Shown piece after piece: positions 13,198 to 15,716 of a stretch of 15,776 bases of DNA. How positions within the stretch are numbered: position 1 is the first letter of the stretch; each line of letters begins with the position of its first letter. The notes under the pieces were generated by a model. That model was not told the origin of the DNA and did not search any database. It saw nothing but the letters and a program-made list of their open reading frames with translations. Source of the stretch: an uncultured Clostridia bacterium (GTDB lineage Bacteria > Bacillota > Clostridia > Christensenellales > Aristaeellaceae); the NCBI GenBank assembly GCA_934615145.1, contig CAKTTM010000011.1, positions 1-15,776 on the forward strand, in the 5' to 3' direction. Position numbers and translations under genes: made by a program.

Positions 13198-13917
13198 ATG
13201 ATTGTACATGTCTTTGACAAGCCCAGGCAGGCCAGCCTGGCCGCGGCCCAGCTCTTTGCCGCGCAGATATTGGAGAAGCCTGATTCCGTCCTGGGCCTGG
13301 CCACTGGCTCCACCCCGGTGGACACCTACAAGCAGCTCATCGCTTGGCATCGGGATGGCCTGCTGGATTTTTCCCAGTGCGTCAGCTTTAACCTGGATGA
13401 GTATGTGGGCCTGGACGCCAGCCACCCGGCCAGCTACCATGTCTTCATGCGCGAGCAGCTCTTTGACCACATCAACATGAAGCAGACCCACGTGCCCGAC
13501 GGCGTACCCAAGAGCCTGAAGGCCGAGTGCCGCCGCTATGACAAGGCCATCGCTGCCGCCGGCGGCATCGACATACAGCTGCTGGGCCTGGGCACCAACG
13601 CCCACATCGGCTTCAACGAGCCCGACAGCGCCTATGTCATCGGCACCCATGTGGTAGACCTGACCGACAGCACCATCGAGTCCAACAAGCGCTTCTTCAA
13701 GAAGGCCGCCGATGTGCCGCGCCAGGCCATTTCCCTGGGCGCAGGCGGCATCATGAAGGCGCGCAAGATCGTGCTGGTCGCCTATGGCAAGTCCAAGGCC
13801 CAGGCCGTCAAGGCCATGGTGCAGGGCGAGGCCGATCCGCAGGTGCAGGCCGCAATTTTGCGGATGCATCCCAATTGCGTGATCCTGCTGGACAAGGAAG
13901 CGGCCAGTTTGATCTGA
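13198..13917 (+). CDS. nagB: Glucosamine-6-phosphate deaminase
   Basis: Converts glucosamine 6-phosphate and water to fructose 6-phosphate and ammonia, the committed step of amino-sugar catabolism in the cytoplasm. The 239 residues match the short monomeric form typical of Firmicutes. Motifs are GLATGSTP (33-40, phosphate loop), NLDEY with catalytic D67, and LGLGTNAHIGFNEP (129-142) with H136 and E141. The common form of the last motif is NGHIGFNEP; here Gly is replaced by Ala. SLGAGGIMKARKI corresponds to the usual TMGIGTIMKA segment. GGAGG lies 9 nt before the ATG. It is transcribed divergently from galT and toward the DnaA-box region, alone among the genes left of that region. No clear terminator follows it. 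No nagA or nagE is visible. Confidence 0.93.
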   Translation: MIVHVFDKPRQASLAAAQLFAAQILEKPDSVLGLATGSTPVDTYKQLIAWHRDGLLDFSQCVSFNLDEYVGLDASHPASYHVFMREQLFDHINMKQTHVPDGVPKSLKAECRRYDKAIAAAGGIDIQLLGLGTNAHIGFNEPDSAYVIGTHVVDLTDSTIESNKRFFKKAADVPRQAISLGAGGIMKARKIVLVAYGKSKAQAVKAMVQGEADPQVQAAILRMHPNCVILLDKEAASLI

Positions 13918-13933
13918 GATTTGTCCGGGCTTT

Positions 13934-13942
13934 GTGGATAGA
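13934..13942 (-). promoter_or_regulatory. DnaA box, left cluster 1
   Basis: TGTGGATAG, i.e. CTATCCACA on the minus strand, matches the TTATCCACA consensus at eight of nine positions. It begins 17 bp after the nagB stop codon. Confidence 0.65.
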
Positions 13943-13945
13943 TCT

Positions 13946-13954
13946 GTGGACGAA
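13946..13954 (-). promoter_or_regulatory. DnaA box, left cluster 2
   Basis: TGTGGACGA, i.e. TCGTCCACA on the minus strand, matches consensus at seven of nine positions. It is 3 bp from the previous box, in the same orientation. Confidence 0.45.
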
Positions 13955-13998
13955 TCGGGGGGCTGAGGCCGGAGGGCTTGTGCAGGCCTGAAGGGGGA

Positions 13999-14007
13999 TA
14001 TGCACAG
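13999..14007 (+). promoter_or_regulatory. DnaA box, left cluster 3
   Basis: ATATGCACA fits the relaxed TTWTNCACA consensus at eight of nine positions. It is the only plus-oriented site in the left cluster. Confidence 0.4.
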
Positions 14008-14024
14008 CCTGTGGGTTGCGCTTT

Positions 14025-14033
14025 GTGGAAATG
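14025..14033 (-). promoter_or_regulatory. DnaA box, left cluster 4
   Basis: TGTGGAAAT, i.e. ATTTCCACA on the minus strand, fits the relaxed TTWTNCACA consensus at eight of nine positions. Weaker TGTGGG sites flank it at 14011 and 14044. Confidence 0.45.
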
Positions 14034-14421
14034 TGAGTTGTTGTGGGTTTTTTGGGCAAGGCGGGGGAGTCGTGATGGGTGAGGGAACCAAGCTGCGCGC
14101 GGCTGCAGCGCGAAGAATCACTTCGCTCTCTTCTCGGCTTGCGTGGTCAAGTGAGGGGTAGGCGAACGGCCGCCCAACAATCCGCGCCTCACCTTCGCCA
14201 TGTCGCGTGCTGCGCGCTATGCGCTTGCCCGCTCTGTGGCTCAGGTGACCCTCAGTTCAGCATGGTCGCTTTCTGCGCTCGCAGGCGCTCGCTTGAAAGC
14301 TCGCTGCTTCACTGGGCTGCCGCCCGCCTTCATCCGCCTACTGGCGGCGGCGGGCTCTGCCCCCCTGACAAGGGCTTTCATCCCTTGACCCATCTCTGGT
14401 TTTCCCCAGATTGTTCCCACT

Positions 14422-14430
14422 TTGTCCACA
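14422..14430 (+). promoter_or_regulatory. DnaA box, right cluster 1
   Basis: TTGTCCACA matches the consensus at eight of nine positions. A weaker relative, TTTTCCCCA, precedes it at 14400-14408. Confidence 0.65.
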
Positions 14431-14485
14431 GATTTTGGCAGCCTGCTTGAATAAGTTTTGAAGTCCCCGCTTGAGATTAAGCCAC

Positions 14486-14503
14486 TTATCCCCAGCATCC
14501 ACA
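14486..14503 (+). promoter_or_regulatory. Tandem DnaA boxes of the unwinding module
   Basis: TTATCCCCA (14486-14494, eight of nine to consensus) is directly followed by GCATCCACA (14495-14503, seven of nine), same orientation and no gap. They sit just before the GC block and trio repeats, the place where DnaA loads before spreading onto single strands in Bacillus subtilis. Confidence 0.7.
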
Positions 14504-14532
14504 GCCCCTACGACTACTACTACTTATTATTC
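14504..14532 (+). promoter_or_regulatory. GC block plus DnaA-trio repeats (origin unwinding element)
   Basis: After GCCCC, the top strand reads in triplets from 14509: TAC, GAC, then TAC three times, then TTA twice, then TT. The bottom strand therefore carries the repeated 3'-ATG-5' pattern described as DnaA-trios in Bacillus subtilis, where DnaA binds single-stranded DNA to open the duplex. Order and spacing (tandem boxes, GC block, trios, AT-rich tail) match that module. dnaN starts about 35 bp further on. Confidence 0.72.
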
Positions 14533-15688: not shown

Positions 15689-15716
15689 CCATCAAGAAAC
15701 TGCGGTTTCTTGATGG
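15689..15716 (+). terminator. Terminator-like hairpin after dnaN
   Basis: CCATCAAGAAAC (15689-15700) and GTTTCTTGATGG (15705-15716) form a perfect 12-bp stem with a TGCG loop, 5 bp after the dnaN stop. The following tract is only TTTA, so termination may be partial. The TTTCTTGATGG arm resembles the TTTGTTGATGG tail of both hairpins beside the IS. Confidence 0.6.

Follow-up and report, generated by a model that had tools for sequence, protein, structure and literature searches.

The window, that is the whole stretch of 15,776 bases analysed here, contains sugar-metabolism and transporter genes, a nagB-like gene and dnaN. At positions 14486-14531, ending 36 bp 5′ of the dnaN start, it harbours two abutting DnaA-boxes, a GCCC block and an array of DnaA-trios (Table 1). 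We are highly confident that this module is a basal unwinding system (BUS) and that it marks oriC. The original prediction had placed the likely melting and origin site in front of dnaN, which is supported by the conservation of the module and by the GC skew of related genomes, and the cell from which the window derives probably uses the module as its origin. The BUS as such is already known, having been predicted in 1755 of 2070 origins (PMC8287927), and the module of the window is a further BUS.

The order and spacing of the parts fit the published BUS search rule and agree with the B. subtilis order of boxes, GC block and trios that had been proposed for this site. The rule allows two mismatches to TTATCCACA in a box, four in the second box and a gap of up to 3; here the boxes carry one and two mismatches and the gap is 0. 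At least three 3′-NAN-5′ trios are expected within 16 bp of the box, and trios 3-8 form six consecutive ones beginning 10 nt past box 2. The spacer from the better box to the first trio, which should be about 10-13 bp, is 13 bp (box 1 to trio 1). On the lower strand the trios read 3′-GAT GCT GAT GAT GAT GAA TAA TAA-5′: trio 1 is NAN, and trio 2 (14511-14513) is 3′-GCT-5′, with a C in the middle and no central A on the trio strand. Since the published search program uses (.A.){3,} for the counted run and does not demand an A in every triplet of the array (PMC8287927), trio 2 leaves the assignment as a BUS intact.

The letters after box 2 are GCCCC (14504-14508) and TAC GAC TAC TAC TAC TTA TTA TTC, and had first been read as GCCCC with seven triplets in the TAC phase. 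The array itself was recognised correctly, but the TAC phase is one base late: the trios begin at 14508 and the GC block is GCCC, because B. subtilis has 5′-CTACTATTACTTCTACTA-3′ on the same strand (PMC10201434) and the commonest, consensus trio is 3′-GAT-5′ (PMC8287927; PMC10721633). The B. subtilis BUS, with DnaA-box 6/7, GC block and trios in incC (PMC6669920; PMC8287927; PMC10721633), shares with the window two boxes, a short GC block, 3′-GAT-5′ trios on the same strand and the CTA start. A middle C, in contrast, is natural in trio 2 of the window, whereas in the B. subtilis work it was only engineered (PMC10721633).

Table 1. Positions of the origin module and of neighbouring features in the window.
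Feature	Position	Strand	Remarks
DnaA-box 1 of BUS, TTATCCCCA	14486..14494	+	1 mismatch to TTATCCACA; counterpart in relatives
DnaA-box 2 of BUS, GCATCCACA	14495..14503	+	2 mismatches; abuts box 1
GC block GCCC	14504..14507	+	letters read from sequence
DnaA-trios, top strand CTA CGA CTA CTA CTA CTT ATT ATT	14508..14531	-	from sequence; phase from PMC10201434, PMC8287927
Upstream DnaA-box TTGTCCACA	14422..14430	+	1 mismatch
Upstream DnaA-box CTATCCACA	13933..13941	-	1 mismatch
Long-range inverted repeat, arms 13942-13959 / 14416-14433	13942..14433		18 nt, 83% complementary
nagB-like gene (Glucosamine_iso), upstream of origin	13198..13917	+	PF01182
dnaN (DNA polymerase III beta clamp), 371 aa	14568..15683	+	Pfam PF00712, PF02767, PF02768

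When the window was scanned strictly (two abutting boxes with at most three mismatches in total, a spacer of 3-4, a middle T in at least five of six triplets and at least three CTA/TTA), one module was found, and none in 300 first-order Markov simulations of the window. Inspection of 13 related dnaN loci by eye revealed the module within 200 bases of the gene in at least seven (L001-L006, L012). A first BUS scan had missed the broken arrays in L003, L005, L006 and L012 and was replaced by a later finder, which requires two abutting boxes (up to three mismatches each, gap 0), a spacer of 3-4 and a CTA-like first trio. This finder was applied to a family-wide draw of 150 genomes, in 128 of which dnaN was matched, with no match in 22. 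The 130 upstream sequences comprised those of 127 of the 128 dnaN genomes, the window, G005 and G006; G101, with only 242 bases upstream, was left out. A module before dnaN was accepted in 90 of the 130 sequences, compared to none in 645 Markov-shuffled sequences and none on the 130 reverse strands. Many of the 40 sequences that were not accepted show the module by eye: 22 were read in this way, not blind to DnaA residue 187, and 18 entered no count, as there was no DnaA read, no upstream DNA, an unclear frame or no module seen. In G052, G093, G048 and G021 no module was seen by eye upstream of dnaN, and G122 has no upstream DNA. A loss of the triplet phase was looked for in the close relatives G001, G002, G003, G004 and G037 and was not seen; all five keep the phase. 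G002, G004, G152, G094 and G103 have another short array resembling trios (TACTACTGC or similar), which follows the main trios downstream after an AT-rich gap and is missing from the window. A class-wide search with the pattern TCCACAN{3,4}CTACVACTA matched 7 of 391 genomes (variable middle base on the top strand: A in five, C in one and G in one), fewer than the reversed-pattern control with about 27 matches, and is uninformative beyond the family.

In B. subtilis, incC lies between dnaA and dnaN. The window differs in that dnaA is not upstream of dnaN; the nagB-like gene is found there as a conserved neighbour, and a relative precedes dnaN in 13 of 30 related sequences, the window not counted. 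Among the 128 genomes, dnaA is directly upstream of dnaN in 36, all with a DnaN identity of at most 43% to the window. In the other 92 it is on another contig (84; a separate contig is in itself no proof of distance), on the same contig but far away (5) or not listed (3). At a DnaN identity of 45% or more (59 genomes, one without a listed dnaA), dnaA is adjacent in 0 of 58, most of them judged by contig only. Distance is established on three chromosome-sized contigs, where dnaN and dnaA are 1.21 Mb apart in G097 (3.26 Mb), 1.28 Mb in G137 (3.41 Mb) and 46.5 kb in G033 (3.97 Mb). The dnaN coordinates in G544 (2.7 Mb) and G570 (1.8 Mb) point to contigs of chromosome size there too. Moreover, a DnaA query gave no match in any of 31 upstream stretches of up to 1.5 kb (shorter in G003 and G122).

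A second locus, with dnaA and a stronger module, had been named as a finding that would speak against an origin at dnaN. In the relatives dnaA does lie elsewhere, yet the same finder detected no module on the 64 strands of 32 dnaA-side stretches. All 32 unlinked loci (L069-L096, L014, L015, L018 and L019) have a cluster of DnaA-boxes with no more than one mismatch upstream of dnaA, often near -100, -115 and -200 to -245, perhaps for autoregulation. As the unlinked dnaA has boxes but no module, and the BUS stands beside dnaN, the usual arrangement seems to have been split in these relatives, the BUS staying with dnaN and the box cluster leaving with dnaA. Two dnaN matches per assembly were seen in G061, G074 and G114, accompanied by two strong dnaA matches in G061 and G074. 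G002 also has a second dnaA-dnaN pair (L038, on contig C137) with a DnaN of only 28% identity, a contaminant or second replicon; as a possible contaminant it was left out of the module counts.

The GC skew that had been suggested as a check could be followed on four long contigs of relatives, and on three of them (G137, G033 and the 97-kb contig of G004) the cumulative minimum lies at dnaN, while the turn is less sharp on the fourth, G097. In 20 samples of 20 kb each, the skew of G097 and G137 is negative in the last sample before dnaN and positive in the first one after it. No lasting turn at dnaA was observed in G097, G137 or G033; one G137 sample past dnaA reached +0.010 between negative neighbours. 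In G137 the minimum within 200 kb is 75 bp past the dnaN start, and an equally deep V was obtained in 0 of 20000 block shuffles. The minimum of the 97-kb G004 contig is at 56,406, which is 0.5 kb beyond the module and 440 bp beyond the dnaN start; a V of that depth came up in 2 of 20000 shuffles. The 69-kb dnaA contig of G004 shows no turn at dnaA. For G033, whose contig ends were joined as if circular, it is at 63,307, which is 0.3 kb beyond the dnaN 3′ end (63,585-64,688, minus strand), with dnaA at 16.6 kb. In G097 the skew jumps at dnaN, but the cumulative minimum within 200 kb is 50 kb beyond it, with mixed skew between. Of the shorter pieces, L002 has its lowest cumulative skew at the module and L001 (11 kb) is uninformative, as is the window itself, where cumulative skew falls through dnaN, which is C-rich on its coding strand, to the window end.

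Among cyanobacteria, cases are already known in which the origin is close to dnaN and dnaA is encoded apart from dnaN (PMC7198777). In Synechococcus elongatus, a cyanobacterium and not a member of the Bacillota, the origin is likewise at the GC-skew turn near dnaN (PMC7198777), and the BUS of this species is opened by its own DnaA (PMC8287927). Among clostridial origins, the unwinding region has been studied in Clostridioides difficile (PMC7561715). In the parts of the cited papers available to us and in our literature search, neither natural middle-C trios nor the unlinking of dnaA seen here were reported, which is weak evidence of absence.

According to the 2023 cryo-EM study, the DnaA subunits of B. 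subtilis hold two bases of each trio between them, with Asn187 reading the middle A via its amine; a middle C performed about as well as A in vitro and outperformed G and T in vivo, and the possibility was raised that homologues of DnaA might accept a range of sequences (PMC10721633). On the trio strand, the middle base of trios 2-5 in the 90 modules is A in 245, C in 78, T in 19 and G in 18 cases; that of trio 1 is not judgeable, since the finder demands a middle T there. Trios with a canonical neighbour on both sides give a weaker picture, with 29 deviations (C 18, T 9, G 2). Parsimony on the DnaN tree yielded about 40 changes from A to C, 13 from A to G and 9 from A to T (T>G, T>C and T>A on the top strand), and among the remainder 15 later changes of the middle base, seven of which lead from C back to A. 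At the first trio position transitions dominate (on the top strand 23 C>T, 12 C>A and 2 C>G), as they do at the third (42 A>G, 27 A>T and 8 A>C). At fourfold sites of dnaN, compared in 46 close pairs that are mutually non-independent, TC (552) exceeds TG (351), and the contrast between trio middles and fourfold sites has odds of 4.8 (P = 2e-7). Mutation bias is therefore not an easy explanation of the middle C, because the bias at fourfold sites runs in the opposite direction.

Next to the trios we compared the DnaA pocket. Residue 187 (B. subtilis numbering) in the DnaA of 122 relatives is Asn in 101, Ile in 11, Thr in 8, His in 1 and Ser in 1; position 228 is Glu in all 122, 202 Arg in 117, 193 Ile in 104, and 190 Ile in 92 and Val in 30. 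The residue tests cover 88 genomes, as two of the 90 accepted modules (the window and G045) are without a DnaA read. At least one middle C is present in 51 of 70 genomes with Asn187 and in 0 of 18 with another residue; with the 22 modules read by eye these numbers become 67 of 91 and 0 of 19. On the tree, Asn187 has changed at least four times, and the middle C is also absent from several neighbours of these changes that have Asn187. A two-trait, tree-aware likelihood test preferred a dependence of the middle C on residue 187 (P = 0.0026). The test strengthens when the doubtful frames (G018, G104, G142, G085, G124 and G056) are dropped (P = 0.0006), gives P = 0.0001 with the window set to Asn and P = 0.003 with it set to non-Asn, and weakens to P = 0.08 on trios 2-4 only. 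Residue 190 is associated with the middle C as well (P = 0.0003), and no association was found for residues 193 and 196 (P = 0.17 and 0.15), so that the whole pocket rather than residue 187 alone may be the cause. Among further relatives, five (G671-G675, where no DnaA was read) have no middle C, and G628 and G629 have one. The middle-C pattern supports the amine-reading pocket proposed in 2023, and the covariation with residue 187 is not yet secure.

The nearest relatives of the window on the tree have Ile or Thr at residue 187 and no middle C; the window has one. Apart from the window's own, the closest DnaN in the protein collection is P0122 (82%), from a Christensenellales bacterium. P0122 and P0005, a DnaA with Asn187, each lie on a contig of 2,009,315 bases and seem to come from one contig. 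P0006, a DnaA that is 89% identical to P0005 and has Asn187 too, could be the window's own DnaA. A dnaN was detected in three of five genus-mates of G001, and no sequence among them came closer to the window than that of G001 (76%); in a family-wide search with P0122, which matched 265 of 308 genomes, none was closer to P0122 than G001 (76%).

By analogy with the mechanism described in the B. subtilis papers, DnaA would dock on the two boxes, and the oligomer would extend from them onto the lower strand. Adjacent subunits would capture the first two bases of each trio (3′-GA-, and 3′-GC- at trio 2), the duplex would open along the trios and along the AT-rich TTATTATT tail, and the helicase would be loaded just before dnaN. 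Because in the clade of the window (Christensenellales, judging by how its relatives are named) dnaA has moved from the origin while the BUS and dnaN stayed, DnaA would act in trans. As the middle base would be read through its exocyclic amine, C could stand for A where DnaA keeps Asn at residue 187. We tentatively suggest, at something near an even chance, a code 3′-G-(A or C)-N-5′ that is read via this amine and co-evolves with residue 187, perhaps also 190: lineages with Asn187 would use C freely and those with Ile, Thr, Ser or His would not, the window combining Asn187 and a middle C within an Ile/Thr187 clade.

Alternatively, the module may be an ordinary BUS in which trio 2 has decayed or contains a sequencing error, the A/C pattern of the family being due to lax selection and shared descent. 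We consider this doubtful but a serious candidate. The six unbroken NAN trios 3-8, 10 nt past box 2, are sufficient for the published rule without trio 2, no middle C occurs in G001, G002, G003, G004 or G037, and the residue-187 association rests on at least four independent losses of Asn, with some near neighbours that keep Asn187 also having no middle C. Decay should however tend towards the transition from A to G, but A to C prevails (40 against 13) and does so against the fourfold-site bias (odds 4.8); moreover, P0122, the closest other DnaN at 82%, seems to share a contig with the Asn187 DnaA P0005. The variation might also reflect DnaD instead of DnaA residue 187, if DnaD holds the top-strand T at the trio centre (TnnT opposite the trios), which we regard as rather unlikely. 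TnnT pairs opposite the trios are required for DnaD binding in B. subtilis (PMC10201434), and a DnaB_2/DnaD-type domain was detected in 32 of 33 genomes tested. This would account for the loss of T, but not for G rather than C as its replacement, and the domain is present in Asn187 and non-Asn187 genomes alike, with only G120 (Ser187) giving no match. In G001, G033 and G137, frames of the DnaB_2/DnaD type (about 400-530 aa) with several domain matches are found close to a weak DnaA-like AAA+ match that may represent the helicase loader DnaI.

It is very improbable that the origin lies at dnaA and that the module is a DnaA-regulated promoter or titration site for dnaN. The box clusters upstream of dnaA in 32 of 32 unlinked loci would suit such an arrangement, but the skew turns at dnaN and not at dnaA in G137, G033 and G004 (more broadly in G097), and the 64 dnaA-side strands are without a module. 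Single sites with two mismatches are common, six of them in the intergenic region besides box 2, and could suggest a chance likeness in a non-coding stretch; in view of the 300 simulations without a module, of the 90 modules accepted in 130 real sequences as compared to none in 645 controls, and of the conserved position in relatives, this is already refuted for practical purposes.

The published BUS program counts only trios with a middle A, and origins of this type may thus be under-counted; if a middle C were allowed, the calling of origins in uncultured bacteria could be improved. The family offers a natural experiment, and its candidate specificity residues can be exchanged. Furthermore, because dnaA is up to 1.3 Mb from the origin in relatives, the dose of the initiator gene would no longer track origin firing.

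In the whole window three sites have at most one mismatch to TTATCCACA (at 13933, 14422 and 14486), all of them in the 650-base gap before dnaN, and this intergenic region contains ten sites with up to two mismatches. Each arm of the long-range inverted repeat holds a DnaA-box-like site, the two being oppositely oriented, and the repeat might play a role in looping. About 310 bases between the upstream boxes and the BUS (14090-14400) are enclosed by its arms, and a 123-aa frame is listed at 14079-14450. Directly past dnaN there is a palindrome, CCATCAAGAAACTGCGGTTTCTTGATGG (15689-15716), perhaps a terminator; the gene 3′ of dnaN encodes an ABC transporter in L001 and L002 and is RecF-like in G137. 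Near the start of the window, a transposase gene (DUF772, DDE_Tnp_1) is located on the minus strand at 554-1591.
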